64,000 bases of DNA. Origin: Methylocystis sp. L43. Lineage in GTDB: Bacteria; Pseudomonadota; Alphaproteobacteria; Rhizobiales; Beijerinckiaceae. The DNA is taken from contig NZ_JADNRA010000027.1 of the NCBI RefSeq assembly GCF_015709525.1, forward strand, positions 1 through 64,000, in the 5' to 3' direction. The notes beneath the pieces were generated by a model, which searched no databases, was not told the origin of the DNA, and saw only the letters and a program-made list of their open reading frames with translations. A program made the position numbers and the translations under genes. Every line of letters begins with the position of its first letter. The stretch's first letter is position 1. Below, piece after piece: positions 646 through 16,324 of this stretch.

Positions 646-1371
646 ATGTTGTCAGCGGAGCGTGACGTAATGGTGCACGCCTTCCCCAATATCGAGAGCG
701 GCGGCGCCGCATCCACGGCGACGGAGAGCGGGCCAGGCGTTCGTGACGCTGAGAGCGCCTATCGCGATCTGACTGGCGTTTTGCCCGACGCGGCGGATAT
801 CGACGGCGATGCGCATTTCGACCGCCACGTTCTGGCGTCGATCCTCGCCTTAGCGTCGAGCGAGGGCGGAAGTCTTGCGGCGCGAGCCGGTCTGACGGCC
901 GCTGAACTCGGCGATCTTTTTTCTCACTACTTCGCTGCGCGAAACATCGAATCTTCCGGCGACCACGAGACGAGTCTCGTCGACGCGGACGAAATCGAAA
1001 TCGTGCGGGATCTCCTTCTTGAGAATCGCTCCAGCGAGGGCGAGTTCGGTCGTTGGCTCGCCGCGATGATCGCGCGCCGCGCCATGGAGCCCAACCATCT
1101 GTGGGAGGACCTCGGTCTTCGCGACAGATCCGAATTGACGCGGCTGATCGCGCGCCATTTCGCGCCGCTCGCCCGACGCAACGACAAGAACATGCGCTGG
1201 AAGCGGTTCATCTACCGCATGATGTGCGAGAACGACGGTTTCGTCATGTGCAGCACGCCGGTGTGCTCGAACTGTGCTGATTACGCGCTCTGCTATGGCG
1301 CGGAAACCGGGACGAGTCGCGTCGCATCGGCGGCGCAGGCGCCCGCGACGCCCGCCGAACAGACAGTGTAA
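646..1371 (+). CDS. nifQ: Nitrogen fixation protein NifQ (molybdenum donor for FeMo-co)
   Basis: 241 residues. NifQ binds an Fe-S/Mo cluster and supplies molybdenum to FeMo-cofactor assembly on NifEN. The diagnostic C-terminal ligand pattern C-X4-C-X2-C-X5-C (from the Cys of MCSTPVC to that of DYALCYG) lies about 25-45 residues from the end, preceded by the conserved stretch around MRWKRFIYRMMC. The first 50 residues look unconserved. Two starts are possible: ATG 646 with GGGAGG buried in a hairpin, or ATG 670 with CGGAG about 9 bases upstream. The longer form is given. It follows nifH, fitting a nifH-nifQ transcription unit. Confidence 0.93.
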   Translation: MLSAERDVMVHAFPNIESGGAASTATESGPGVRDAESAYRDLTGVLPDAADIDGDAHFDRHVLASILALASSEGGSLAARAGLTAAELGDLFSHYFAARNIESSGDHETSLVDADEIEIVRDLLLENRSSEGEFGRWLAAMIARRAMEPNHLWEDLGLRDRSELTRLIARHFAPLARRNDKNMRWKRFIYRMMCENDGFVMCSTPVCSNCADYALCYGAETGTSRVASAAQAPATPAEQTV

Positions 1372-1389: not shown

Positions 1390-1405
1390 TGTCGAGTTTT
1401 CGACA
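1390..1405 (+). promoter_or_regulatory. NifA upstream activator site TGT-N10-ACA
   Basis: TGT at 1390-1392 and ACA at 1403-1405 are separated by exactly 10 bases in the AT-rich nifQ-iscA gap. It lies about 50 bp upstream of a -24/-12 promoter, the expected layout for NifA activation of sigma54-RNA polymerase by looping. Confidence 0.8.
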
Positions 1406-1453
1406 ATCTCATAATTTGCTGGTCGGACTGGCGGTTTTTGCCCGCGCTGGGGA

Positions 1454-1469
1454 TGGCATGTCGATTGCT
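1454..1469 (+). promoter_or_regulatory. Sigma54 (-24/-12) promoter of the iscA-nifV-cysE-nifW-fixABCX operon
   Basis: The sequence reads TGGCATG-N4-TTGCT. GG at 1455-1456 and GC at 1467-1468 are separated by exactly 10 bases, as sigma54 requires; only one base of TGGCACG differs. It starts about 40 bp before the iscA ATG. All downstream genes to 8557 run in the same direction with short gaps. Confidence 0.85.
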
Positions 1470-1508: not shown

Positions 1509-1829
1509 ATGATCACGGTCTCGCAGGCAGCCGTCGCCGCGGTAAAGGATGCGATGGCGCGGGCCTCTCAACGAGAGGGTGGTCTGCGCATTCTGGTCAA
1601 GGAAGGCGGCTGCGCCGGCTACGAGTATGTCGTCGATCTTGATCCGCAGCAGAGGAACGACGACATCGTCGTCGAGGCCGACGGCGTGCGCGTGCTAATC
1701 GATCCGGCCTCGCGTCCGCGCCTCGAAGGCATGACGCTCGGCTATCGACAGGATCTCGCCGGATCCGGATTCACCTTTGAGAATCCCAACGCAAGCTCCA
1801 CCTGCGGCTGTCAAAAATCCTTCAACTGA
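1509..1829 (+). CDS. HesB/IscA-family Fe-S carrier of the nif operon
   Basis: 106-residue A-type Fe-S carrier, full length for the family, expected to pass iron or [4Fe-4S] clusters to nitrogenase maturation proteins. The three conserved cysteines are present: Cys35 in [10 protein letters not shown] and Cys99/Cys101 in CGCQKSF. GGAGG lies about 8 bases before the ATG. It is the first gene after the NifA/sigma54 promoter, so it is the nif-dedicated copy (often called iscAnif or hesB) rather than housekeeping iscA or erpA. Confidence 0.92.
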
Positions 1830-1912
1830 AGGAGCGCGCGGATGCGTGGAGCGGTTGTGCGGTTGTTCCTTGGTTGCATGGAAGCGGGCGCCTCGAGCGT
1901 TCGTATGAGTCG

Positions 1913-3112
1913 ATGACGACATATGCGCCCCGAAAGAGTTCGCTTCCTCCCGTCGCTTCGCTGACGCAGAGAGCGCTGGATGTGGTGTTGAACGACACCA
2001 CGCTTCGAGACGGCGAACAGGCCCCGGGCGTCGCTTTCACCTGCGAAGAAAAACTCGAAATCGCACGCGCCTTGGCGCGCGCCGGCGTTACTGAACTCGA
2101 GGCCGGAACGCCGGCGATGGGCGCTGTGGAGATCGCGATGATCCGAGCGATCGTCGACGCGCAATTGCCGTTGCGCGCGATCGCCTGGTGCCGGATGCGC
2201 GTCGAGGACGTTGATGCGGCGCTGGCGTCGGGCGTCTCGATGGTCAATCTTTCCGTCCCCGTCTCCGAGACGCAGATACGTGCGAAATTGCGCGGCGGGC
2301 GCGCCCAGGCGCTGGAGATGACGCGGCGCGTCGTCGCCTACGCGCGCGACAAGGGGCTCGACGTCGCAGTCGGCGGCGAGGATTCTTCGCGCGCCGAACC
2401 GGAATTCCTAATGGAGACGATGGCGGTCGCTCAGGCCGCCGGCGCCCGTCGATTCCGGGTCGCCGACACGTTGAGCGTGCTTGATCCTTTCGCCACTTTC
2501 GATCTGATCGGCAAACTGCGCGCGCAGAGCGATCTTGAAATCGAAATCCACTGTCATGACGATTTAGGACTCGCCACCGCCAATACCTTGGCTGGCATCA
2601 AGGCAGGCGCGACGCATGCGTCAGTCACCGTCATTGGGCTTGGCGAGCGCGCCGGCAATGCGCCGCTCGAGGAAGTCGCCGTGGCGGCGCGTCAGCTGCA
2701 CAAATACGAAACCGGGATTGTGCTCACCGAATTGCGCAACGTTGCGGCGCTCGTCTCCGCCGCGGCGCGTCGGCCGATCCCGCTCAACAAATCCATCGTC
2801 GGCGAGCATGTTTTCACACATGAGTCCGGCATTCACGTCGACGGACTGCTCAAGGACCCGCGCACCTATGAAGCTTTCGATCCGAGCATGCTCGGCCGCG
2901 CGCATGAGATCGTGATCGGCAAACATTCCGGTTCGGCGGCCGTCACCGCGAGACTGCGGCAATTGGATTTGGCGGTCAGCGTCGAGGAGCTCGGCGAGAT
3001 CGTCTCCTGCGTGCGCGCCCATGCGCTTGATCACAAGGGGCCCGTCAGCGGCGAAGCCTTGACGTCGATTTGGCGCAACGTCTGTGCGAGCACTCACGCG
3101 AGAGGCATGTGA
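1913..3112 (+). CDS. nifV: Homocitrate synthase NifV
   Basis: About 399 residues. It condenses acetyl-CoA with 2-oxoglutarate to homocitrate, the organic ligand of FeMo-cofactor. The DRE-TIM metallolyase signature [15 protein letters not shown] lies near the N-terminus, and the metal-binding [15 protein letters not shown] and HESGIHVDG motifs follow. ATG 1913 was chosen because residues before it are not typical of the family; a TTG at 1874 is an upstream alternative in the same frame. Its position between iscA and cysE/nifW supports nifV over isopropylmalate synthase (leuA), which would be longer and carry a C-terminal regulatory domain. Confidence 0.95.
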
Positions 3113-3117
3113 GCGTC

Positions 3118-3915
3118 ATGCTCGAACGAGTCGCCACGATGACAAACCAGGCAGCGCAGACCAAGGCGGCGCCCGCGGCGCCCGTGCCGACGCGCTTGCA
3201 ACTGATCCGCGAGGATCTGGCGTGCGTGGCGACTCGTGATCCCGCCGCCCGCGGACGTTTCGAGACGCTGCTCACCTATCCCGGGCTGCACGCCGTCATT
3301 TGGCATCGCCTCGCCAATTGGCTGTGGATCAATGATCATCGCTTCTGGGCGCGTCTGCTCTCCTGGTTCGCGCGCTTTCTGACCAATGTGGACATCCATC
3401 CGGGCGCGACGATTGGCCGACGCTTTTTTATCGACCATGGCGCCGGCGTCGTTATCGGCGAGACGGCGGTCGTCGGCGACGACGTGACGCTTTATCACGG
3501 CGTGACGCTTGGCGGCGTCTCCTGGTCGCCGGGCAAGCGCCATCCGACTCTCGAGGACGAAGTCATCGTCGGCGCCGGCGCAAAAATTCTCGGTCCGATC
3601 ACGATCGGCCGCAATGCGCGGGTCGGCGCCAATTCCGTCGTGATCGAAAGTGTGATGCGCGACGCGACAGTGGTCGGAATCCCGGCGAAGATCGTGCACC
3701 GCGACGTCGGCCGCTGCACATTCGATGGCCGCATCAACCTCAATCACCATTTGATGCCGGATCCGGTCGGCGAGGCATTCTCGGTGTTGCTCGATCGCGT
3801 CGAGTTCTTGGAGACGCGCGTGTCACATCTGCAAAGGCGTCTGCGGGAACGCCAATCGACCATCAAGGCCCCTGATGGCGCCGCGCCAAAGGCGGAGCCG
3901 GCGGAAATCACATGA
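3118..3915 (+). CDS. cysE: Serine O-acetyltransferase (CysE/NifP)
   Basis: About 265 residues. It makes O-acetylserine for cysteine synthesis; nif-linked copies (nifP in Azotobacter) are thought to raise cysteine supply for Fe-S cluster assembly. The left-handed beta-helix hexapeptide repeats are clear from about residue 110 ([35 protein letters not shown]), with the catalytic His of IDHG. The start is uncertain: GTG 3109 overlaps the nifV stop, ATG 3118 follows AGAGG, and ATG 3139 is further in. The last 30 residues look unstructured. The stop overlaps the upstream candidate start of nifW. Confidence 0.93.
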
Positions 3916-3926
3916 AGGAGACCAAA

Positions 3927-4253
3927 ATGTCGGAGCCCGCCGTTCTGGAGCAATTGAAAAAGGCGTCCTGCGCCGAAGAGTTCTTCGCGCTGCTTGGCGT
4001 CGAATATGATCCGAAAGTGGTCAATGTCGCGCGCCTGCATATTCTGCGGCGCATGGGGCAATATCTCTTCAGCGAAGATCTATGCGAACTGGACGACGCG
4101 ACGGTCACCCAGCGCTGCAAGGACTTTTTGGAACGCGCCTACCAGGACTTCCTAACGTCGACGCCGATCGACGAACGTCTGTTCAAAGTTCACAAAGACG
4201 CCGTCAAGCCGGCGGCGCCGCCGTCATTGGTGCAGCTCAACGTTCTGAAGTGA
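3927..4253 (+). CDS. nifW: Nitrogenase-stabilising protein NifW
   Basis: 108 residues, normal length for NifW, which protects MoFe protein from oxygen damage or helps its maturation. Recognisable family features are the EEFFALLGVEYDP stretch, the LHILRRMGQYL helix and the central C-K-DFLERAYQDF segment. ATG 3927 has AAGGAG with a 6-base spacer; an upstream in-frame ATG at 3912 overlaps the cysE stop but has no such site. Expressed with cysE and fixA from the nif-type promoter at 1454. Confidence 0.93.
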   Translation: MSEPAVLEQLKKASCAEEFFALLGVEYDPKVVNVARLHILRRMGQYLFSEDLCELDDATVTQRCKDFLERAYQDFLTSTPIDERLFKVHKDAVKPAAPPSLVQLNVLK

Positions 4254-4282: not shown

Positions 4283-5125
4283 ATGCATATCGTCGTCTGC
4301 ATGAAGCAAGTGCCCGACTCGGCGCAGATCCGCGTTCACCCGGTGACCAACACGATCATGCGCCAGGGCGTTCCGACGATCATCAACCCATATGATCTGT
4401 TCGCGATCGAAGAAGCGTTGCGGCTGCGCCAAAAATTCGGCGGCGCGGTCACCATTCTCACCATGGGTCCGCCTTCCGCCGAGGACAGTCTGCGCAAGGC
4501 GCTGAGCTTTGGCGCCGATCGCGCGGTGCTGTTGACCGACCGCTTCTTTGCCGGCGCGGACACGCTGGCGACGACATATGCGTTGGCGACGGCGATCCGC
4601 AAGATCGGCGTGGAGTTTGGGCCGCCTCACGTCGTCTTCACCGGCAAGCAGACGATCGACGGCGACACGGCGCAGGTCGGCCCCGGCGTGGCCAAGCGGC
4701 TCGGCCTGATGCAGCTCACTTATGTCTCGCACATCGACAACGTCGATCTTGAGGCGGGAACGATCGACGTCGAGCGGCGCAGCGAAGGCGGCGTTCAGAA
4801 GTTGCGCAGTAAAATGCCCTGCCTGATCTCGGTCCTCGAAGGCGTCAACGAGATGCGCATTGGTTCGCTGAGCGACGCGTTGGCGGCGGCGCGCGCGACG
4901 ATCATCAAATGGAGCGCGCAGGACGCCGGCGTCGAGGACATCACCAAATGCGGGCTGCGCGGCTCGCCGACGATCGTCAAGCGCGTCTTCGCGCCGAAGC
5001 CGCGCGCGGAAAAGGCCCAATTCATCGAACTCGGCGACAAGCCAGGAGACGTCTTCGTCGATGAATTGTTCAAGCGCCGGCCGAAACTCGAATCCGAGCT
5101 CGGACACTTGACGCGCGGCTATTGA
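4283..5125 (+). CDS. fixA: Electron transfer flavoprotein beta-type subunit FixA
   Basis: 280 residues. With FixB it forms the flavoprotein of the FixABCX complex, which bifurcates electrons from NADH to quinone and to the low-potential ferredoxin/flavodoxin that feeds nitrogenase. The EtfB-type start [18 protein letters not shown], the [15 protein letters not shown] loop and the [14 protein letters not shown] segment mark the FixA subfamily. FixB, FixC and FixX follow in order, confirming the nif-linked role. Confidence 0.96.
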
Positions 5126-5147
5126 TCTTGAAACAGGAGCGCGACAC

Positions 5148-6251
5148 ATGAACGACACGGCTAAGGCTCCTGCTCCGGCGGGGCGCGCGGCGGCGAAAAA
5201 AGAGCTGCCCGAACATCTCAAAGCCTACAAGCACGTCTGGGTCTTCATCGAGCAGGAGCGTGGACAAGCGCATCCGGTCTCCTGGGAGCTGATGGGCGCG
5301 GGGCGGATTCTCGCCGATAAGCTCGGCGTCAATCTCGCCGCGGTCGTCGTCGGCGCTCGCAACGAGGCGACGCAGGCGGTCGTGCGCGAAAGCTTCAATT
5401 ATGGCGCAGACCTCGCCTATCTTGTCGCGGACGACATCCTCACCGATTACCGCAATGAGAGCTACACCAAGGCGATGACCGATCTGGTCAACGCCTATCA
5501 GCCGGAAATCCTGCTGCTGGGCGCGACGATTTTGGGGCGCGATCTTGCCGGCTCGGTGGCGACGACGCTGCTGACCGGTCTCACCGCCGATTGTACGGAA
5601 CTCGACGTCGATGCGGAAGGTTCGCTCGCCGCGACGCGTCCGACGTTCGGCGGCTCGCTGCTCTGCACGATCTTCACGCTGAACTATCGCCCGCAGATGG
5701 CGACCGTTCGCCCGCGCGTGATGCCGATGCCGGAGCGAGTCGAAAAGCCGCTCGGCCGGGTGATCGAACATCCGCTCGGCCTGGTGGAAGACGACATTGT
5801 CACGAAAGTATTGTCGTTTCTGCCCGATCGCGATTCGACAAAGTCCAACCTGGCTTTCGCCGACGTGGTCGTCGCGGGCGGCCTCGGCCTCGGCTCTCCG
5901 GAAAACTTCCAGCTCATCCGTCAGCTGGCGAGCACGATCGGCGCGGAATTCGGCTGTTCGCGCCCGCTGGTGCAAAAGGGATGGGTCAGCTCTGATCGGC
6001 AAATCGGCCAGACTGGTAAGACCATCCGACCCAAGCTTTATATCGCCGCGGGCATTTCCGGCGCGATCCAGCATCGCGTCGGCGTCGAGGGCGCGGATTA
6101 CATCGTCGCGATCAACACCGACAAAAATGCGCCAATCTTCGATTTCGCCCATGTTGGAATCGTCACCGACGCGGTACGGCTTTTGCCTGCACTCACGGAA
6201 GCGTTCTCGAAACGATTGTCTCCGCATCAGCGCGACCGTCTAGCGAGCTAG
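5148..6251 (+). CDS. fixB: Electron transfer flavoprotein alpha-type subunit FixB
   Basis: 367 residues. It carries the FAD-binding C-terminal domain of the FixAB flavoprotein. Visible signatures are [16 protein letters not shown], the conserved Arg/Lys segment around [10 protein letters not shown], and [22 protein letters not shown], the ETF-alpha fingerprint near the C-terminus. The N-terminal 40 residues ([18 protein letters not shown]) are typical of FixB rather than housekeeping EtfA. ACAGGAG lies just upstream of the ATG. The gap to fixC is 11 bp. Confidence 0.96.
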
Positions 6252-6262
6252 GGGAGATAGGC

Positions 6263-7570
6263 ATGATCGAAGAAAGATTCGACGCGATCGTAGTTGGCGC
6301 CGGCATGGCCGGCAACGCCGCCGCCCTGACCCTGGCGCGCAAGGGCCTCAAAGTCCTGCAGTTGGAGCGCGGCGAATATTCCGGCTCCAAGAATGTGCAG
6401 GGCGCGATCCTTTATTCCGACATGCTCGAGAAGCTTGTCCCGGATTTTCGTGAGGACGCGCCGCTGGAGCGTCATCTCGTCGAGCAGCGCTTTTGGATGA
6501 TGGACGACAACTCCCATACGGGACTCCATTATCGCTCGGACGAATTCAACGAGGAGCGTCCCAACCGCTACACCATCATCCGCGCGCAATTCGACAAATG
6601 GTTCTCCAAGAAGGTTCAGGAGGCCGGCGCGGTCGTGCTGTGCGAAACCACGGTCCTGGAGCTGCTGCAGGACGCCTATGGAAAAGTCATCGGCGTGCGC
6701 ACGGACCGCAAGAACGGACAGGTCGGCGCCGATGTCGTCGTGTTGGCGGAAGGCGTGAGCGGGCTGCTCGGCACAAGAGCCGGCCTGCGCAAGACGCCCG
6801 ACAAGAGCAATGTCGCTCTGGCGGTGAAGGAAATGCACTTCCTTCCGCAGGAAACTCTGGAAGCCCGCTTCAATCTGCGCGGCGACGAAGGCGCGGTCAT
6901 CGAGGCGGTCGGCACCATCTCGCAAGGCATGACCGGGATGGGCTTCATTTACACCAACAAGGAGTCGATCTCGCTCGGCATCGGCTGTCTCGTCGCGGAC
7001 TTCGAGAAGACGGGACAGACGCCGTACGGACTGCTGGAAAAGTTCAAGCAGCATCCATCGGTGGCGGCGCTCATCGCAGGCTCGGAAGTCAAGGAATACG
7101 CCGCGCATCTGATCCCCGAAGGCGGCTTCAAGGCGATCCCACAGCTTTATGGCGACGGCTGGGTCGTCGTTGGCGACGCCGCGCAGTTGAACAACGCCAT
7201 ACATCGCGAAGGCTCAAATCTTGCGATGACCTCCGGACGGATCGCCGCGGAAGCGATCTTCCAGATCAAATCGCGCCGCGATCCGATGACGAAGGAGAAT
7301 CTGGCGCTCTACAAGAAGATGCTCGACGAGTCCTTCGTCATGAAGGATTTGAAGAAATATCGCGACATGCCGGATCTGCTTCACATTCAGGCGCAGAACT
7401 TCTTCCTGACCTATCCGCAGCTCGTCTCGAAGGCGATGACGAATTTCCTGCGCGTCGACGGCACGCCGAAGCGCGAAAAAGAGAAGACCACGTTCCGCTC
7501 CTTCCTGGCGGCGCGTTCGCTGACAGGACTGGTCGGCGACGCCTTTCGGCTGGCGCGCGCGTGGAGGTAG
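6263..7570 (+). CDS. fixC: FAD-dependent ETF:quinone oxidoreductase-like protein FixC
   Basis: 435 residues. It takes the high-potential branch electrons of the FixABCX complex to the quinone pool. The dinucleotide fold [19 protein letters not shown] is at residues 11-29, followed by [17 protein letters not shown], and a second FAD motif [10 protein letters not shown] lies near residue 300. Unlike mitochondrial ETF-QO it lacks a fused C-terminal Fe-S domain; that job is done by FixX downstream. GGGGAG lies before the ATG. Confidence 0.96.
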
Positions 7571-7606
7571 TTGGGCGTGATGCCCCTCTAGCAACGGAGT
7601 AGGACA

Positions 7607-7903
7607 ATGAGCGCAGAAGCAGCAGTCCGGGTGGAGGACAAGCTTTACCTCAATCGCTATCTCGTCGACGCCGGCCGCGCCCACATCAAGGTGCGTCCGC
7701 ACACCACGCCTTCGCCGCAACTGCTCAGTCTGGTGAACGTCTGTCCGGCGCACTGCTATGAAATGAACTCGACCGGGCAAGTCGAGATCACGACCGACGG
7801 CTGCGTCGAATGCGGCACGTGTCGGATCATCGCCGAGCCGAGCGGCGACATCGAATGGAACTATCCGCGCGGCGGCTACGGCGTGCTGTTCAAATTCGGC
7901 TAA
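7607..7903 (+). CDS. fixX: Ferredoxin-like protein FixX
   Basis: 98 residues, the [4Fe-4S] subunit of FixABCX. The four cysteine ligands expected of the ETF-QO-type cluster are in [10 protein letters not shown] and [12 protein letters not shown], and the protein ends in the common [20 protein letters not shown] lies before the ATG. Directly downstream of fixC. Confidence 0.95.
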
Positions 7904-7942: not shown

Positions 7943-8557
7943 ATGAAATTCTACATGACGCCCGGATCCTGCTCCACGGGCATACACATCCTGCTCGAAG
8001 AGATCGGGCTGGTGTTCGAGGCCTATATCGTCAATCTGGTCAAGGGCGATCACCTCAAGCCGGACTATCTGGCGATCAACCCGCATGGAACGATCCCGAC
8101 TCTGTTGCGCGACGATGGCGTCGCGCTGACGGATTTTCACTCCATCGCGCTTTGGCTTGCGGAGGCCTATCCGCGCCGCAAGCTCCTGCCGGAGAGCGCG
8201 GATGCGCGCGAGTCGGCGTTGGCCGCCATGCATTTTTGCGTACAGCATATTCACGGCGACGGCTTTCGACGCGTGTTCACGCCGGAGCGCTACGCCGGAT
8301 GGCAGGCCGACATCGAGGCGATCAAGTCCGAAGGACGTGAAATCGTCGCCTCGGCGCTGATCGCAATCAATGCGGAACTTGCGGGCAAGGACTATGTCGC
8401 CGGCGGCTTTTCGGTCGCCGACGCGGCGCTGTTCTATGTGGAGTTTTGGGCCGACAAGACGGGCATGACGCTGCCGCGCAATTGCCAGGCGCATTACGCG
8501 CTTATGAAAACGCGCCCGGCCGTCCGTCAGGTGCTCGCTGAAGAAGGCTATCGCTGA
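7943..8557 (+). CDS. Glutathione S-transferase-like protein, nif-linked
   Basis: 204 residues with a bacterial beta-class GST fold: an N-terminal thioredoxin-like half (MKFYMTPGSCSTGIHI, with Cys10 at the beta-class active-site position, and NPHGTIPTL with the cis-proline) and an all-helical C-terminal half (GGFSVADAALFYVEFWA). It sits 39 bp after fixX in the same direction and may be the last gene of the nif/fix operon. The substrate is unknown; protection of nitrogenase metabolism from electrophiles or oxidants is only a guess from position. Confidence 0.88.
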   Translation: MKFYMTPGSCSTGIHILLEEIGLVFEAYIVNLVKGDHLKPDYLAINPHGTIPTLLRDDGVALTDFHSIALWLAEAYPRRKLLPESADARESALAAMHFCVQHIHGDGFRRVFTPERYAGWQADIEAIKSEGREIVASALIAINAELAGKDYVAGGFSVADAALFYVEFWADKTGMTLPRNCQAHYALMKTRPAVRQVLAEEGYR

Positions 8558-8643
8558 TTCAAAGCGCGCGCCTCAGCCGATAGGCTGCGTGAGAGTCGTG
8601 TAAGCGCATCGACCTCAACGTTGATGGATGCGCCACTGTACGC

Positions 8644-9069
8644 TCAATGGCGCTTGTCATGCGCATTATCCGGATCGTTGCGCATCCAATCGGCCAGCTT
8701 TGCGAGATTTTCGCGCAGGCCTTCACGTATGCCGACGTCTTCGATCGTCGCATCCAGCGCGCCGTTCATGCACAGCATCCAGGCGTCGCGCTCGGCCGGA
8801 CCGATGCGCAAATGGCTATGCCGCATGCGCAGGCGCGGATGCCCTTTCTTGGCGGAATAATCCTTGGGGCCGCCGAGCCATTCGGCCAGATAGACCTTCA
8901 AAATGGCGCGCGTCGGTCCAAGATCGTCCGCGTGAACGGCGCGTATGCCGCGCGCTTCCGGTAGTTCGTCCATGTTGCGGTAGAAGGTTTCGACAAGCCG
9001 ATCGACCGTGTCGAAGCCGCCGATGCGATCGTATATGGATACGGTATGGTCGATAGTGGTCGTCGTCAC
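8644..9069 (-). CDS. Group II truncated haemoglobin (TrHbO-like)
   Basis: About 141 residues from a GTG start at 9069 with GAGG upstream; the upstream extension of this frame is a shadow of the neighbouring gene and was left out. Features of a 2-on-2 globin: SIYDRIGGFDTVDRLVETFY (helices A/B, with a Tyr at the B10 position), the proximal His region MRHSHLRIG, and the Trp in DAWMLCM (G8). It lies 11 bp downstream of the YqeB-like gene in a minus-strand operon headed by a sigma54-type promoter. Globins in nif regions are known (GlbN in Nostoc), so oxygen or NO handling during nitrogen fixation is a reasonable inference. Convergent with the GST gene. Confidence 0.88.
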   Translation of the reverse strand: MTTTTIDHTVSIYDRIGGFDTVDRLVETFYRNMDELPEARGIRAVHADDLGPTRAILKVYLAEWLGGPKDYSAKKGHPRLRMRHSHLRIGPAERDAWMLCMNGALDATIEDVGIREGLRENLAKLADWMRNDPDNAHDKRH

Positions 9070-9080
9070 GGACTCGAGCC

Positions 9081-9950
9081 TCAGTGATAACTTACGGTAA
9101 TGGGCCGCGCCCAATGGCGTGCGTGGACCGCCCTGGCGATTACGCGATAGGCGGCGTCCGCTATGGCGCGCCCATATTCGTCGGTGCCTGTCCAAGTCGA
9201 GGCGCGCCCGCGCGGATCGACCTCGACGAGTTTCACGTTTTGCGGCACGACGACCCCGTCGCGCGCAATGCCGCGCAGGAAGCCGTCCATCGGCGAAAGG
9301 ACGCGGTGACCGTCGAGGAGGCCGAGGAGGTAATCCTTGAAGATGCGCGCGCCAACGTCGAGGGGCGTGCGCCAAACGCCATCTCGGGCGGAATAGACGA
9401 AGCGGCCGCGGCCGACGCCGCCAAGATAGCGTGGAACATGGTCGTTGGGCCGAGTTTCGCCGGTTTCGACGAGGTCGCCGGCATGGTCGGGATGCGTCTC
9501 GATGGCGACGTCGCAGTTCAATCCGGCGGCGAAATACGGGCCGAGGCCGATGGCGAGATTGGCGATTTTCCGCAGATTCGTCGTCATACGGTTCTTTTGC
9601 ATTCGCGCGTCGATCAACACGTCCGGCGTGCGAAGCGCGAGGAGATCGGTCAGTTGCAGCGAGGTCACCGCGACGACGCCCGTTACCGTCAACACCCGTA
9701 CGATTTCCAGCGCAGTCTCGCCGCGGTAGCCCTGAATGCCGTCGACTTCGGCGCGATCTTGGAATAGAGCGTCGTGGAACGACATGCCACGCCGAATGAC
9801 AGGCGGGTAAGGGTCGTGACTGAGCACAACGCGGTAGCCCTCCCGCGTCAGACGCGCCGCAACCGCCGAAGCAATCTCATTCGCGCCCAAAATGACCACG
9901 AAGGGGGCGCTTCGATTGGACAGAAATTCGCAGAATCGCACGTGTGTCAT
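9081..9950 (-). CDS. YqeB/EF2563-like protein (molybdenum hydroxylase accessory family, tentative)
   Basis: 289 residues from ATG 9950, which has GGGGGGA just upstream; a TTG 27 bases earlier is the longest frame but has no such site. The N-terminus is a Rossmann-type motif (VVILGANEIASAVAARL) followed by YRVVLSHDPYPPVIRRGMSFHDALF, a pattern I associate with the selenium-dependent molybdenum hydroxylase YqeB/EF2563 family. The middle has LIDARMQKNR and GLGPYFAAGLNCDVAIET, the end is poorly conserved. The biochemical role of the family is not established. In this operon (Rieske protein, 104-aa protein, this gene, globin) a link to molybdenum or redox cofactor handling for nitrogenase is inference only. 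Confidence 0.7.
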   Translation of the reverse strand: MTHVRFCEFLSNRSAPFVVILGANEIASAVAARLTREGYRVVLSHDPYPPVIRRGMSFHDALFQDRAEVDGIQGYRGETALEIVRVLTVTGVVAVTSLQLTDLLALRTPDVLIDARMQKNRMTTNLRKIANLAIGLGPYFAAGLNCDVAIETHPDHAGDLVETGETRPNDHVPRYLGGVGRGRFVYSARDGVWRTPLDVGARIFKDYLLGLLDGHRVLSPMDGFLRGIARDGVVVPQNVKLVEVDPRGRASTWTGTDEYGRAIADAAYRVIARAVHARHWARPITVSYH

Positions 9951-10030
9951 CGTCCCCCCGCGCCCCAGCGAAAGCAAGACGCACGCCAGCGACTGAAGCG
10001 ACGCGCGTCTTCGCGGCGTCGCCGAATGCG

Positions 10031-10345
10031 CTACAAAGCCACGTAAATGAATTTCCCCGCCTTCAGTCCGGGATAATTTTCGCGCAAGGCGTTCGCGATC
10101 TTTCCGACGAGCGTCTTGTCGGCGGCGGCGGAGGCGCCGACAAAATCAGTTCCCTGCATCCAGGTTTCGAAGAAGCAGTGCAGCGTCTCGTCGTAATCGG
10201 CGCCGGTGGGATTGGCGGTCTTGTCGCTAAGATCGGCGACTCCCGCGGCGCTGACCTCAAGACGCCAGTCCCGGTCGTCTTCGACGGACGCCATCAGACT
10301 GGCGAGATCGTCATTCGTCCAATCGGTCTTCAGATCCACCGCCAT
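10031..10345 (-). CDS. Unrecognised 104-residue protein of the nif region
   Basis: Not recognised. A small acidic soluble protein with no membrane segment and a single cysteine (LHCFFETWMQG). It begins MAVDLKTDWTNDDLASLMASVEDD-like and ends in a short basic tail. GGAAGGTGG lies just before the ATG, which supports it as real. It is the second gene of the minus-strand unit Rieske - this - YqeB-like - globin, 55 bp after the Rieske stop. Co-transcription from a sigma54-type promoter suggests a nitrogen-fixation role, but nothing in the sequence says which. Confidence 0.75.
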   Translation of the reverse strand: MAVDLKTDWTNDDLASLMASVEDDRDWRLEVSAAGVADLSDKTANPTGADYDETLHCFFETWMQGTDFVGASAAADKTLVGKIANALRENYPGLKAGKFIYVAL

Positions 10346-10400
10346 GCTCGCCCACCTTCCTTGCGTGATCGCGGTCTCGCAATATGCAGACCAGCGTTGT

Positions 10401-10733
10401 TCAGGGTTCTGCGAAGATCGGCGCTATGCCTTCGGCGTCGATATAGACGACGCCGTCTTCGATCCGCACCGGATATTCGGCGAGCGGCGTCGCATGCTCG
10501 TGGGTGGGTTGACCGCTGTTCATGTCCCACGACCAGAAATGCAGCGGACAGGTCAACGTCGTCCCGTCGAAATCGGCGTCCGCCAAGGGAACATTGGTGT
10601 GCGGACAGACTCCCTGAAACGCCTTTACGACGCCGTCTTCCGGCCAGGCGAGAACGATGAGTTGCGCGTCGGCGATGACCACGCGCATTCCGCCCTCCAT
10701 GAGTGTGTCTTCCTTGCAGACGCGAACAAACAT
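10401..10733 (-). CDS. Rieske-type [2Fe-2S] ferredoxin
   Basis: 110 residues from ATG 10733 (GGAG 8 bases upstream; 16 extra residues in the longer frame are not conserved-looking). Ligands Cys43-X-His45 and Cys62-X2-His65 in CPHTNVPL and CPLHFWSWD match soluble Rieske ferredoxins of the toluene/biphenyl dioxygenase type. There is no oxygenase next to it, so it more likely serves as a stand-alone electron carrier. First gene of the minus-strand operon, 44 bp behind a -24/-12 promoter match. Confidence 0.92.
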   Translation of the reverse strand: MFVRVCKEDTLMEGGMRVVIADAQLIVLAWPEDGVVKAFQGVCPHTNVPLADADFDGTTLTCPLHFWSWDMNSGQPTHEHATPLAEYPVRIEDGVVYIDAEGIAPIFAEP

Positions 10734-10776
10734 GAAGGCGCTCCGTAAGGCTGGCTGCGAATTTGCATCGACGGCG

Positions 10777-10792
10777 AGCAAGATTCGAGCCG
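10777..10792 (-). promoter_or_regulatory. Sigma54 (-24/-12) promoter of the Rieske-globin operon
   Basis: On the minus strand the sequence reads CGGCTCG-N4-TTGCT, with GG and GC exactly 10 bases apart. It matches the -24/-12 consensus except for the first T and one A. The -12 GC lies about 45 bp before the Rieske ATG. No TGT-N10-ACA NifA site was found in the 200 bp upstream, which is hicA coding sequence. Confidence 0.72.
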
Positions 10793-11734: not shown

Positions 11735-13432
11735 CTACGCCGCATGCGCCGTGTCGAGGCCGCGAAAGATCGCGCAGCGGCGGAAAACGGCGACGCTCGG
11801 CGGCACATTCTTCTGGTGGCAGAACTTCGCCGTGAGCTTCGCCAACCCCTTTATGTCGCGGCCCGTGGCGGCGGGGAAAATCTCGACGAGGTCGTCGATG
11901 AGCGCGTCATCGACGTTGAGCGCGAATTGCTCGGTCATCACGCGCCAGATGCGGCGCTTCGCGTCAGCGTCTGGCGGGTTGTATTTGATCAGCGCGATGC
12001 AGCGCGAGACGATCGCTTCGTCGATGTCGTCGACGCGGTTCGTCGTCAGGAAAAGCAGACCATTGAAATATTCGAGCACGCGCAGGAAAACGCCGACGAC
12101 GGCGTTCATGGCGATGTTGTCGTCGCGGCGTTTGATGTAGACGTCGGCCTCGTCGATCAGCATCACCGCTCCCCAGCGCTGGGCGCGCGTCAAAATCTCC
12201 TTTAGCGCCGTCTCCATCGTGCCGACGTTGAGGCCCAACTGCCCCGAATGCACGCGGTACAAGGGACGCTGGATGATTTCCGAATAGACCTCCGCGGTCA
12301 GCGTTTTGCCAACGCCGGGCGGGCCGGCGCAAAGCACCGTGGTGCCGCCGGATTTGCCCTGGACGATGTCGTCCATCAGCACGTCCATTTCGGCGGTCAG
12401 AATGTCGATGAGATCCGTCTGCTCCTCCGGCAGCACCAGCTTGCTCTTCAACTCGGGCTGATAGCGATAAAGCCGCATCTCATCGACATGCACCCAGACG
12501 TGATGATGCAGATCGAGATGGAACATCAGAATGTAGGGATGCACAGGAACTTGCGTGAAGAGTCCCGGCGGAATCTGTTCGCGCAGCTCGGCGATTTCGT
12601 CCTCGCCGGAGAAATTGTTGCTCTTGCCCGCCTTGCGCAGGAAATGCCCGAGCACGTCGCCTGGCGCCTCCAGCGTCAGGTTGCGCGCCGAGAGCACCGC
12701 CTCGTCATTGACGAGACGCGCCTCGCCGCCGCTCGTCGAGAGCACGATGACGTCCTTACGCGTCCAGTCCGTATCGCGATGCGTGGCGTTGGGGTCTTCG
12801 GCGTGAAAGCCGGAGCCCTTGCCCGAAAATTGCGCGCCATAGCGGCCGCGCCAATCGAAATAGGTCTCGCTCGCCGCGTCGAAGGCCTCGATCAAAGCCG
12901 GCGTCTCGCGCAGAAAACCTTTGGCGGCGAGGATTTCGCTGATGGTTCGGCCGACGATGTCGGGCGCCATGATGCGCATGAGATTGGTTTGCAGCGTGCC
13001 CTTGGCGTTGGCCTTCAGTTCCACCAGGATCTTGCCGGCCTCGTCGTTGGAGGTCGGCACATAGTCGAAGCGCGTCACGACATAGGGCAGCGCCTTGGCG
13101 GCGACGCTGGCTGTGAACAGCCAGCCGCGTAACCCGTCGGTCGTCATGTATTTGACCAGCGCCGGCAATACGTCTTCGAGATCGCCGGCTTCGAAGCGCT
13201 TGCCCTGCGACTCCAGCGCCGAGCGCAGCGTCGCGAGCTGCGCGGCTCTGGCGCGCAATTCGGGACCCGATTGCTGATACAGCTCTTCGAGGAAGTCGAA
13301 TTCGGCGCCGGAGAGATGCGCAAGATCGAGTTCGACTCTGTCGCCGAAGCGCAGTTGCGACGAGAGCCCCGAATGGGCGGGAAAGCGCGCAATCAGCGCT
13401 TCGACATGCGGCCTTTCGATTTGAATGTTCAT
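11735..13432 (-). CDS. AAA+ ATPase coupled to a SagB-type nitroreductase
   Basis: 565 residues: about 340 N-terminal residues of unrecognised sequence, then one AAA+ module. Walker A is GPPGVGKT (370-377) and Walker B VMLIDEAD (423-430), with a likely sensor-1 LFLTTNRVDDID and arginine-containing DEAIVSRCI. The start overlaps the stop of the SagB-type gene by ATGA, so the two are translationally coupled. Single-AAA proteins of this kind act as remodelling chaperones or Rubisco-activase-like motors; the partner here may be the nitroreductase or a nitrogenase component. The function is inference. Confidence 0.9.
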   Translation of the reverse strand: MNIQIERPHVEALIARFPAHSGLSSQLRFGDRVELDLAHLSGAEFDFLEELYQQSGPELRARAAQLATLRSALESQGKRFEAGDLEDVLPALVKYMTTDGLRGWLFTASVAAKALPYVVTRFDYVPTSNDEAGKILVELKANAKGTLQTNLMRIMAPDIVGRTISEILAAKGFLRETPALIEAFDAASETYFDWRGRYGAQFSGKGSGFHAEDPNATHRDTDWTRKDVIVLSTSGGEARLVNDEAVLSARNLTLEAPGDVLGHFLRKAGKSNNFSGEDEIAELREQIPPGLFTQVPVHPYILMFHLDLHHHVWVHVDEMRLYRYQPELKSKLVLPEEQTDLIDILTAEMDVLMDDIVQGKSGGTTVLCAGPPGVGKTLTAEVYSEIIQRPLYRVHSGQLGLNVGTMETALKEILTRAQRWGAVMLIDEADVYIKRRDDNIAMNAVVGVFLRVLEYFNGLLFLTTNRVDDIDEAIVSRCIALIKYNPPDADAKRRIWRVMTEQFALNVDDALIDDLVEIFPAATGRDIKGLAKLTAKFCHQKNVPPSVAVFRRCAIFRGLDTAHAA

Positions 13433-15084
13433 GTTCGCTCGCGCATCTCTTCAGGGTAGGCGGGGAGCGTCAGCATGCGCGGGTCTTCCAGCGCGGCGCC
13501 GACGGTGAAGTGGTAGACGTCCTGAAAGGCGTATTGCTCTGGCGACAGACCGAGCATCGCGTGGATCTCGTCGTCGAAGAAGCAACCGATCCCCGTGCCG
13601 GAGAGGCCGATGGCGCTGGCCCAGAGATAGAGCGCCTGGCCGATCGCGCCGGCCTCCCAGTGCAGCCGGCGATAGCCGAAGCCGCCGTCCTCTTGAAGCG
13701 TGCGATCGAAATCGGCGATCATCGCGACGGCGAAACAGCCCTTGCCGGCGATCGCCTGGCGGCAGGCGTTCATGCTCGCCTCGCGTTCGACGGCGCCGCG
13801 CCGCAGACGAAAGAGTTTGAGCGGCCCGATCTCGATCGGCGTCCAAAGCAGCGCCAGCGCCGACATCTCGCGCAGCCGCGCCGTTGTTTCGGCGTCGCGC
13901 TGCAGCAGATAGAGACCCGGCTCCACGCCCTCGACGCGATGCACGAAGAGCAGCAGATTCAGGCGCGGCGGCCAGGGGAAAGGCGCCAGGCAAGGCTCGG
14001 CGCCGGGAAGCGTCGACGTCAGCATCGCGCAAAACGCCTCGTGCGAGAGGCGGGCGATCCCGTCCATGCGCTGCGCGCTGCGCCGACGCCGCACCACGCG
14101 CCCGATGTCCGGCAGCGGGAACGGGAAGGCGGGTTTCGGCGCCATGCGCGACAAGGGCTCCACTGTCGGCGTGCGCGGCTTGACGCAGAACCGCGCCGCC
14201 CGGTCAACGAGCGGCCAGCCGTCGTGATCTTCGCTCAAGCGATTGGCCGCGCCCGTCCACGTTCGCGGCGCGCGCGCAAGGTTGGAGACGTCGATGGCGG
14301 GGGGCGCGTTCCCATCAGCGGCGATCCACAAGAGCGCATCAGGATGTTCTTCTTCGCGCCGATGAGAAGCGTCCGGCCGATCGAGTCCGAGCAGCGCCGC
14401 GACGTCGGCGTCGCCCGGTTCGCACAAAAGATGCGCGCGCCAGCCCAGCGCGGCGGCGGCCTGCGCGGCGGCGCCGATCGCATGGCCGACATCGAGTTGG
14501 CAATAGCGAAACGCCCGCTCGCCATATTTCCAGCTCTCGCGCCAGGGGACGGAACTCAGACCGAGCAGAAAGCCGCCCTCGGGCAGAACCAGCGGCGTTT
14601 CAAAATCAGCGCGCCGCTCCAGCGCATGATCTTCCTGCGCATAGTGATAAAGCGCGGCGGTCTCGCCGAGCCCCTCGGCGGCGTTGGCGAGGAGATAGGC
14701 TTCGGTCGGATGCAGATTGCCGGAAGAAGGATTGTTGCGCAGCGCCCACGTCGAGCCTTCGTAACTTTTCCAGGCGCTGATCCCGAAGCCGAGCTCCATG
14801 AACAGGCCGAGCGCCATGCGGTCGAGCGGCGCGGCGCGCAGCGCAGGGCCGGGGAAAGGCGCGGTCTCTTCGCGATCGCGTAACGGCAGTTCGATGCGCG
14901 GTGCGCCCTCGAAGCGCCGGAAGGGCGAAGGCTGCGAGGTCCAATCGAGAAAGGCCGGCCCCAGCGCGTAGCGCGTCGGGGCATGTTTCGTGCGCCGGTG
15001 ATAGCCGCGAATGTCGCTTGGCAGAGCGTCGGCGTCCTGCGGGCGTTCTTTCAGGCTCTGAATTTCGGTTTCGGCGTCCGCCAT
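13429..15084 (-). CDS. SagB/ThcOx-type dehydrogenase with two nitroreductase-like domains
   Basis: 551 residues from ATG 15084 with GAGGAGG upstream; the longer frame to 15543 runs into the intergenic region. The first flavin-domain half carries the SagB-type signature RNNPSSGNLHPTEAYL (about 115-131); the second (from about residue 330) has VVRRRRSAQRMDG, LNLLLFVHRVEG and the FMN-proximal GAIGQALYLWASAIGLSGTGIGCF. SagB enzymes oxidise azolines in peptide natural products, but no YcaO cyclodehydratase or precursor peptide is nearby, so a stand-alone FMN oxidoreductase is more likely here. Coupled to the AAA gene and located between nif genes and the photosynthesis cluster. Confidence 0.88.
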   Translation of the reverse strand: MADAETEIQSLKERPQDADALPSDIRGYHRRTKHAPTRYALGPAFLDWTSQPSPFRRFEGAPRIELPLRDREETAPFPGPALRAAPLDRMALGLFMELGFGISAWKSYEGSTWALRNNPSSGNLHPTEAYLLANAAEGLGETAALYHYAQEDHALERRADFETPLVLPEGGFLLGLSSVPWRESWKYGERAFRYCQLDVGHAIGAAAQAAAALGWRAHLLCEPGDADVAALLGLDRPDASHRREEEHPDALLWIAADGNAPPAIDVSNLARAPRTWTGAANRLSEDHDGWPLVDRAARFCVKPRTPTVEPLSRMAPKPAFPFPLPDIGRVVRRRRSAQRMDGIARLSHEAFCAMLTSTLPGAEPCLAPFPWPPRLNLLLFVHRVEGVEPGLYLLQRDAETTARLREMSALALLWTPIEIGPLKLFRLRRGAVEREASMNACRQAIAGKGCFAVAMIADFDRTLQEDGGFGYRRLHWEAGAIGQALYLWASAIGLSGTGIGCFFDDEIHAMLGLSPEQYAFQDVYHFTVGAALEDPRMLTLPAYPEEMRERT

Positions 15085-15305
15085 GCGGCCTCCTCGTCGA
15101 CTTCTTAATTCAAGAAGGGCGCCCAGTTTTGTGGGTTGAGAATAGCCAACGAGATCAATGACTTTTAAAGGACCGGGAAGGAATGCGCCCAGATAGCGAG
15201 AAAGAATGTCGCACAAGACCGCGACAGTGGAGACGCAACCCGGGGCTTTTGGCCGATAGGTGACATTGTCGGTTCCGCCGCGGCTCGGGCCTGCGGCGAC
15301 CGCAA

Positions 15306-15321
15306 GGGTATGCTTCTTGCT
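15306..15321 (+). promoter_or_regulatory. Possible sigma54 (-24/-12) promoter of the PDR-type reductase gene
   Basis: The sequence reads GGGTATG-N4-TTGCT with GG (15307-15308) and GC (15319-15320) exactly 10 bases apart. The -12 half is perfect, the -24 half weak (T for C at two places, first T missing). It lies about 40 bp before the ATG. No TGT-N10-ACA site was found in the gap from 15085 to 15361, which otherwise shows no gene. Confidence 0.45.
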
Positions 15322-15361
15322 ACTTTCTGCGCTCTGTTCCGCATCTTGATCGGACGACGCG

Positions 15362-16324
15362 ATGGACGAAACTCTGCGTGAAGTGATTGTGGCCAAGAAG
15401 AGCGAGGAGGCCCACAATATGGCCTCGTTCGAACTGGTCGATCCCACCGGCGCCGAACTGCCGACCTTCTCGCCTGGCGCGCATGTCGACGTCACGCTTC
15501 CCGGCGGTTTGGTGCGGCAATATTCCTTGTGCAACAGCGCCACGGAACGCCATCGCTATGTCATTGGCGTGTGGAACGACGCGAACAGTCGCGGCGGCTC
15601 CAAGGCGCTGCATACGCAGGTGAATGTCGGCGACAAATTGCAGGTGGGCTTGCCGAGAAATCGGTTTCGCGTGCCGCGGCAAACGAAACGCGCGATCTTG
15701 ATGGCGCGAGGCATCGGCGTGACGCCGATCCTGAGCATCGCGGACCATCTCAAGCGTCAGAAGATTCCCTTCGATCTGCACTACGTTTACGCGATGATGT
15801 CGCCGGGTTCATTCAGCGAGATGATCGCGACATCGAATTTCGCGGAGAATACGAAATATTATTATGAGGCGAGCGAGCTCAATCAGCTGCTCAATCCGGT
15901 GACCCTTCTGCAGGACCAACCGGAAGAGACGCAGCTCTTCATCTGTGGCGTGGATTGGTGGCAGGATCCGATCATCCACCTCGCCGAGCAGAAAAGTTGG
16001 GCGAAGGAGCGAATCCACGTCGAAAGATTCACTGCGAAAGTGCCGCCGGCCGTGCTCGACAAGGTCTTCGAAGTCAAGATCGCCAGCACGGGCGCCGTAT
16101 ACAAAGTCCCCGGCGACAAGACCGTCACGGCTTTCCTCGAGGAGCAGGGCGTCAAAATTCCCACCTCCTGCGAACAGGGCATGTGCGGAACTTGCAAGAT
16201 CCAGGTCATCGAAGGCGAGGCGGATCATCGCGACAAGCGTCTCTCCGATCAGGAAAAGGCGGACGGCTTTTTTCTGGCCTGCGTCTCGCGCGCCAAGAGC
16301 GACCTGCTGGTGCTGAATTTGTAA
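15362..16324 (+). CDS. PDR/VanB-type flavin reductase with C-terminal [2Fe-2S] ferredoxin domain
   Basis: 320 residues in the order flavin-binding barrel (RQYSLCNS, around 52-59), NAD-binding domain (MARGIGVTPILS) and plant-type ferredoxin. Cluster ligands are Cys270, Cys275, Cys278 (CEQGMCGTC) and Cys307. This is the phthalate dioxygenase reductase layout: electrons pass from NAD(P)H through FMN to [2Fe-2S] and then to a partner. No Rieske oxygenase is adjacent; the Rieske ferredoxin at 10401 or a nitrogenase-related acceptor are possible partners. Divergent from sagB-AAA and last gene before the photosynthesis cluster. Confidence 0.92.
   Translation: MDETLREVIVAKKSEEAHNMASFELVDPTGAELPTFSPGAHVDVTLPGGLVRQYSLCNSATERHRYVIGVWNDANSRGGSKALHTQVNVGDKLQVGLPRNRFRVPRQTKRAILMARGIGVTPILSIADHLKRQKIPFDLHYVYAMMSPGSFSEMIATSNFAENTKYYYEASELNQLLNPVTLLQDQPEETQLFICGVDWWQDPIIHLAEQKSWAKERIHVERFTAKVPPAVLDKVFEVKIASTGAVYKVPGDKTVTAFLEEQGVKIPTSCEQGMCGTCKIQVIEGEADHRDKRLSDQEKADGFFLACVSRAKSDLLVLNL

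Follow-up and report, generated by a model that had tools for sequence, protein, structure and literature searches.

Three genes at the end of a nif region

The DNA analysed here, a 64,000-nt stretch of Methylocystis sp. L43 (hereafter the window) from contig C26 in a 4.06 Mb genome, carries a gene for an AAA ATPase, a gene for a SagB-type nitroreductase-fold protein (sagB) and, divergent from both, a gene for a putative PDR-type reductase (Table 1). The window first runs through nifH, nifQ, iscA, nifV, cysE, nifW and fixABCX, which places the AAA-sagB pair at the distal end of a nif region. The open reading frames (ORFs), their strands and the ATGA by which the two-domain sagB gene runs into the ATPase gene, all proposed in a preliminary description of this DNA, were confirmed in the sequence. 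The sagB ORF was taken to begin with the ATG at 15084, which stands behind AGGAGG, and not with the upstream GTG of the raw ORF; it ends at 13429 and encodes 551 residues.

The ATPase matched PF00004 with 63.9 bits (cut-off 21.2) and therefore belongs to the classical AAA ATPases. It shares this core, matched over approximately residues 364-543, with the CDC48/VCP, PAN and Rix7 unfoldases; unlike them, the window protein is linked to nif genes, and its N-terminal half lies outside the best matching stretches. For residues 1-340, which the preliminary description had called unrecognised, no Pfam family scored above its cut-off in a Pfam scan, though distant non-nif relatives align along the whole stretch. 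The protein is 99% identical to its counterparts in Methylocystis rosea SV97 and Methylocystis sp. H62, and the close members are strongly constrained: in an alignment of 62 sequences (A1) mean column identity was 76%, and the key Walker residues as well as five histidines between positions 298 and 315 were invariant. The predicted model was fairly confident over most of residues 1-320, with predicted local distance difference test (pLDDT) values below 50 over residues 326-485, possibly a consequence of the high similarity among the 62 aligned sequences. A PDB fold search with this model, whose AAA part was of low confidence, returned no chain at E<=0.001; this does not speak for a new fold.

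The SagB-type protein contains two PF00881 nitroreductase stretches (13429 to 15000 scanned). It scored 98.2 for the TIGR03605 SagB domain, above the curated cut-off of 78.4, and 80.9 for SagB_rel_DH_2 (TIGR04511), below the cut-off of 240. Its predicted structure (mean pLDDT 83) matched PDB entry 3eo7, the putative double nitroreductase Ava_2154 of Anabaena variabilis, across both domains and over the full length (E 3.4e-48 by sequence profile and 3.9e-25 by fold); the two proteins share ~22% identity, and Ava_2154 is itself named only as a putative nitroreductase. ThcOx, BmdC and McbC were matched over about one half. According to the accessible parts of two reports, BmdC and ThcOx bind flavin mononucleotide (FMN) and BmdC has a conserved active-site tyrosine (PMC8795117, PMC5108345). 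A WKYGER motif was invariant in the SagB alignment, and by analogy its tyrosine is a candidate counterpart of the one in BmdC. What the window protein has in common with the SagB/ThcOx/McbC oxidases is thus a domain score over the cut-off, the nitroreductase fold and this candidate tyrosine. Unlike them, it has two nitroreductase halves in one chain, a nif neighbourhood and no YcaO among the neighbours scanned on both sides (the scan took in part of the ORFs there and did not extend to the whole genome, and precursor peptides were not looked for).

The TIGR03605 score and the match of one half to ThcOx, BmdC and McbC could be taken to mean that the protein oxidises a peptide, as in the azole chemistry of the microcin and streptolysin clusters for ribosomally synthesised and post-translationally modified peptides. 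We regard this as very improbable because no YcaO was found among the scanned neighbours or among the annotated neighbours of the five plasmid homologues viewed, and the best structural match is a double nitroreductase and not a peptide oxidase. As far as the scanned neighbours go, this supports the view in the preliminary description that this is not a standard azole-peptide cluster.

Table 1. Features of the window, with the three genes under study listed before the rest of the nif region
Feature	Position	Strand	Basis
AAA ATPase, 565 aa, member of nif-linked clade	11735..13432	-	ORF, PF00004, nifD co-occurrence, tree
AAA core, residues 366-479, Walker A GPPGVGKT and Walker B LIDEAD	11996..12337	-	PF00004; key residues invariant
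N-terminal half of ATPase, residues 1-340, five invariant His between 298 and 315	12413..13432	-	
SagB-type nitroreductase-fold protein, two domains, 551 aa	13429..15084	-	TIGR03605, start site, fold match
ATGA, sagB stop overlapping ATPase start	13429..13432	-	read directly in sequence
Divergent promoter region, sagB versus reductase	15085..15361	.	alignment of 8 regions
Weak sigma54-like -24/-12 site upstream of reductase, GGGTATGCTTCTTGCT, 8/11 consensus letters	15306..15321	+	
Putative PDR-type reductase (flavin, NAD, C-terminal 2Fe-2S)	15362..16324	+	family matches, linkage to sagB
nifH, cut by contig edge	1..597	+	family match
nifQ	646..1371	+	PF04891, 184 bits
NifA-type element TGT-N10-ACA at 1390 and sigma54 site at 1454 (10/11), upstream of iscA-nifV	1390..1469	+	
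iscA-like, nifV, cysE, nifW	1509..4253	+	family matches
fixABCX	4283..7903	+	family matches
Glutathione S-transferase (GST; +), truncated globin (-), YqeB-like (-), 104-aa ORF (-), Rieske ferredoxin (-)	7943..10781		

Distribution and neighbourhoods of the ATPase

A scan of genome contigs found 250 relatives of the ATPase, and the best 80 loci (65-99% identity) were retained. Among the 79 genomes surveyed for nifD (L026 was left out, being the same assembly as L023), 65 carried a nifD above the curated cut-off (31/40 plus 34/39), against 41 of the 398 genomes in a background sample drawn evenly from the phylum, the window's own genome included (Fisher p ~7e-38, uncorrected for relatedness). 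At a threshold of 1e-30, where related genes such as nifE could also match, the nifD model had a hit in 36/40 plus 37/39 of the ATPase genomes, and the six carriers without any were five metagenome bins and a draft Methylosinus sporium. Together with the location in a nif region, this co-occurrence supports the link to nitrogenase suggested in the preliminary description. The genome-context survey proposed there, in which an occurrence mainly outside diazotrophs would have spoken against the link, came out in favour for the ATPase and mixed for SagB, with nifD in 21 of 46 carriers in the phylum sample.

In a midpoint-rooted tree of 48 ATPase rows (38 close members and ten others), a branch of 2.96 changes per site (100/99) parted 41 rows, the close members with G066, G070 and G135, from seven non-nif paralogues of plasmids and heterotrophs, which sit on long branches and whose own order is unsure. 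The suffix _nif in this tree was given to the close clade and to G066, G070 and G135, including rows with no nifD over the cut-off (L028, L053, L055, L070 and L087 among them) and L026, a genome surveyed for nifD under L023 only. The close clade is carried mostly by nifD-bearing genomes and is set apart from the non-nif paralogues. The location of distant paralogues on plasmids, along with a weak similarity of the AAA domain to IetA (45 bits; 55.1 bits in another search), would fit an IetA-like anti-phage or mobile-element function. This is the least probable of the readings considered here, because a score of 45 is far below the cut-off of 510 for the IteA/IetA equivalog and the close clade tracks nifD; in addition, no protease was found among the scanned neighbours.

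A single-sequence search with the ATPase found eight carriers among the 398 phylum genomes, the window's own included; in this search and in the one with sagB at most three candidates were scored per genome, and the counts may miss members. Four of the eight carriers had nifD, and the other four comprised three distant members (42-53% identity) and a closer one that is frame-broken. Distant relatives at L110, L111 and L117 (~41-53% identity) adjoin an Abhydrolase_2 or annotated esterase gene, and of their genomes, which include one with a Variovorax plasmid, G306 and G312 had no nifD; such neighbours make further roles probable in the wider AAA family.

Genes around the ATPase were called with reference proteins taken from the window, from several other loci and from the annotated record of a Methylococcus, in fetched flanks of up to 8 kb that were shorter for many contigs. 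The Methylobacillus bin L166 has the order nifHDK, fdx, GST, AAA, FeS(CCG), nifEN, nifX, and in Methylococcus sp. EFPC2 the ATPase gene lies downstream of nifV-nifW, ferredoxins, grxD-bolA and a zinc ribbon. In Bradyrhizobium, Azorhizobium and Afipia the next genes are iscA and nifS, and in Methylobacter they are rhodanese, ankyrin and dinitrogenase iron-molybdenum cofactor (FeMo-co)-type (DIMCO) protein genes, while GST, a flavin adenine dinucleotide (FAD) oxidoreductase, a FAH-family protein and SelO recur at other loci. The 89.6 kb plasmid of EFPC2 (L168, L113) unites nifHDK, nifENX, nifV, nifW and ISC-type genes with both SagB and the ATPase. Some Methylocystis-type genomes (L026, L029, L031 and L033) show a second ATPase context beside nifS-like genes, in L026 also with an iscA-like gene and, upstream of the ATPase, a 659-aa protein without a Pfam match. 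A conserved small partner encoded directly upstream of the ATPase was considered and rejected as a family-wide feature, since L040 and L050 were the sole loci whose proteins gave a mutual match.

Sigma54 -24/-12 sites were counted for 77 ATPase rows (L025, L080 and L085 lay outside these), 76 of which had enough upstream DNA. Sites with at least 9 of the 11 consensus letters occurred within 500 bp upstream of the ATPase gene at 36 of the 76 loci, where random stretches taken from these loci would give 5.35, and sites with at least 10 of 11 at 11 loci, compared with 1.15 expected. At L073, L075 and L090 (Methylophilaceae) a TGT-N10-ACA sequence stands ~30-43 bp upstream of the ATPase gene and downstream of the sigma54 site, an unusual position for a NifA element.

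SagB and its links to nif genes, ATPase and reductase

With a profile of 12 members, the SagB family was detected in 45 of 50 ATPase genomes (drawn from the 79 and chosen for having the ATPase) and in 46 of the 398 phylum genomes, where it was present in 21/41 nifD-positive and 25/357 nifD-negative genomes. For 28 of the 45, sagB is on the nifD contig; in 21 the distance to nifD is no more than 10 kb, and 19 of those are divergent from nifHDK. In the recurrent arrangement, nifHDK is followed by oppositely oriented genes for a response regulator, at times a truncated globin and Rieske protein, an ArsC/Spx-type protein, SagB and an ankyrin protein. In Methylococcus EFPC2, for example, nifHDK diverges from genes for a response regulator, truncated globin, hypothetical protein, Rieske protein, hypothetical protein, ArsC, SagB and rhodanese. 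Reading by eye, we found a sigma54 site of at least 10/11 that faces the SagB operon, between it and nifH, at five of 12 nifH-divergent loci (L148, L153, L154, L158 and L168). These nifHDK-divergent proteins sit in a clade of 31 rows (100/96) separate from that of the window protein, which comprises Methylocystaceae and Methylocella (12 rows, 100/100, stem 1.07), so the two nif links may have independent origins. On the Polaromonas plasmid pE3SP1 (L171), the tail of a SelO-type gene overlaps with the SagB gene, the flanking genes are NifU-like, BolA, FdxA, LipA and MoaA, and the 15.6 kb inspected contained no structural nif gene.

Homologues of the window genes at 7943..10781 recurred near the ATPase or SagB genes of other diazotrophs in searches with reference proteins, and this block may hold further accessory genes of the nif region. 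In nif clusters, genes for truncated globins and Rieske proteins recur close to SagB, with bacterioferritin in three stretches, which raises the possibility that SagB, as an FMN oxidase or reductase, scavenges oxygen, nitric oxide or reactive oxygen species together with globin, Rieske protein and GST while the ATPase clears or repairs damaged protein. The named carriers are mainly aerobes or microaerobes, which also counts for such oxidant protection, a reading that we consider conceivable but doubtful. A test with COX1 was uninformative, COX1 being present in 381 of the 398 genomes, and the lone nifD-positive genome without COX1 has sagB.

The relation between the two overlapping genes was followed in 37 Methylocystis-type genomes (the genus sample). 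In the genus sample 26 genomes had both genes, one had sagB only and ten had neither; sagB was thus present in 26/26 ATPase carriers and the ATPase in 26/27 sagB carriers. The genes were adjacent in 20 of the 26 and on other contigs or apart in the remaining six. Eight genomes of this sample without a convincing nifH had neither gene (G001, G003, G008, G013, G015, G019, G027 and G029, several of them incomplete), while the nifH-positive genomes G010 and G022 had neither gene and G033 had no ATPase; the nifH count is rough because nifH is repeated and fragmented at contig ends.

This adjacency, which is also seen in Methylocella silvestris and in Methylosinus loci, the ATGA overlap in the window and the presence of sagB in 45 of the 50 ATPase genomes would be expected if the two formed a dedicated pair in which the ATPase loads, activates or unfolds the SagB-type flavoenzyme itself. 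We judge such a motor improbable because adjacency is largely confined to the Methylocystis/Methylosinus group; in other lineages the two mostly lie apart, and the ATPase is near GST, FAD-oxidoreductase, nifS/iscA or nif genes instead. Moreover, SagB occurred without the ATPase in 42 of its 46 phylum-sample genomes, and five of the 50 ATPase genomes had no SagB at the threshold used. The dedicated assembly system for a flavoenzyme envisaged in the preliminary description was therefore not upheld, SagB also being the commoner of the two (46 genomes by profile versus eight by single sequence, of 398). In Methylocystaceae and Methylocella silvestris the ATPase and sagB genes form a lineage-specific operon of two nif-linked genes, but they are not an obligate pair.

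The reductase scored above the cut-off for Fer2 and below the Pfam cut-offs for FAD_binding_6 and the NAD domain, and its best NCBIfam matches were reductases of the PDR type, below their own cut-offs. It was present in 18 genus genomes, all with sagB, and adjoined sagB in 17, in 13 cases divergently, once at a distance of 2 kb, and in four from an upstream position with the same orientation. The proposed tie between reductase and flavoprotein thus held in the Methylocystis group, where this linkage makes a redox couple of the two a reasonable reading. The weak sigma54-like promoter proposed for the reductase could also be followed, GGGTATGCTTCTTGCT being identical in 8/8 aligned regions (the window and seven relatives, all close kin); a ninth region, L025, with a spacer of 1998 bases, was dropped from the alignment. 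Further blocks in the sagB-reductase spacer, such as GGTGACATTG in a GACA-T-TGTC palindrome, were kept in 8/8 aligned relatives and are possible operators.

Possible roles in nitrogen fixation

Because close relatives of the ATPase are found mostly in nitrogen-fixing genomes and SagB often lies beside nitrogenase genes, both genes are candidate nitrogenase helpers. On balance we lean towards reading SagB and the ATPase as nif accessory proteins, that is, a flavoenzyme that would receive electrons from the reductase and an ATPase that would remodel nitrogenase or a client in metallocluster assembly, and we favour functions near metallocluster assembly, repair or redox protection. By what is known of the families, the ATPase would assemble as a ring and spend ATP on remodelling nitrogenase or a client of iron-sulphur or FeMo-co assembly, which its N-terminal half may recognise. 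The SagB-type protein would be an FMN oxidoreductase that, in Methylocystis, receives NAD(P)H electrons via the divergent reductase, and its redox step may support or protect nitrogenase or its cofactor assembly.

Several observations weigh against a nif accessory role. The ATPase was found in just four of the 41 nifD-positive phylum genomes, the window's own counted, and it therefore marks a subset of diazotrophs, and nitrogen fixation in general can do without it. Just 22 of the 80 ATPase loci had one of the core nif genes (nifH, D, K, E, N, X, V or W) in the fetched flank, and two ATPase carriers of the genus sample, G028 and G035, showed no nifH by our rough test. As for the upstream sigma54 sites, six of the 36 are certainly inside coding sequence (sagB, in Methylocystis), and others more than 300 bp upstream of the ATPase gene may fall within the preceding gene; inspection of the region upstream of the window's own sagB revealed no good site. 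More than half of the sagB carriers in the phylum sample (25/46) had no nifD. When ten nifD-positive sagB genomes of that sample were opened, sagB was near nif genes in three (L176, L177 and L178), and the other seven (L164, L173, L174, L175, L179, L180 and L181) had no nif reference gene in the fetched stretch, several of these contigs being short. Finally, in the SagB tree a weakly supported grouping places the window protein among copies that come from plasmids or from genomes lacking nif.

A more specific form of the accessory role, which we think unlikely, would make the ATPase a nif-specific nitrogenase activase, a ring that recognises clients through a half of its own and resets or repairs nitrogenase or the FeMo-co assembly scaffold in oxygen-exposed diazotrophs, with a flavin redox partner. 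The Rubisco activase CbbX serves here as an analogy only, in that an AAA protein could restore the activity of a metabolic enzyme; the window ATPase scored 12.4 bits against a cut-off of 459 for the CbbX equivalog and is not a member.

Our literature searches on AAA proteins and nif found no paper on a nif-linked AAA ATPase, with most subscription journals outside their coverage, and as far as our searches reach the AAA clade and the flavoprotein are uncharacterised. Two nitroreductase domains are predicted in azo2278 of Azoarcus olearius; this gene and two neighbours were induced 490-, 373- and 443-fold under nitrogen deficiency, and the authors urge study of the relation of these genes to nitrogen fixation, according to the accessible portion of the paper (PMC8467165); azo2278-azo2280 are likened to the window SagB by description only, and that portion names no AAA protein. 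The cyanobacterial genes all1424-all1427 of Anabaena PCC 7120 (nitroreductase, ankyrin, CBS) are named among clusters associated with nitrogen fixation in an excerpt of another report (PMC7065334), the likeness in nitroreductase and ankyrin being by annotation only. A nitroreductase, Avin_02400, is placed in a vanadium-nitrogenase operon in part of a third (PMC9542535) and is known here by description only. Transfer of nitrogenase to new hosts depends on knowing all its many helper proteins, and the ATPase and flavoprotein are candidates, open to direct testing, for a part in assembling its cofactor, repairing it or shielding it from oxygen.

The preliminary description had also entertained a link to photosynthesis, for which the survey gave no support: among 61 relatives, BchL/BchX-type proteins were found in only eight of 26 ATPase carriers, and the ATPase was present in 8/15 genomes with such proteins and 18/46 without. 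These proteins were recognised as matches below the nifH cut-off, a rough reading that was confirmed by family for the window. Beyond the nif region, between 16408 and 60548, the window of this Methylocystis-like methanotroph carries photosynthesis genes, namely carotenoid genes (crtI-family, CrtB-like and CrtD) and bchX, bchY, bchZ and bchL, and BchL/BchX-type proteins also occur in nine of the 36 genus relatives of the window genome.

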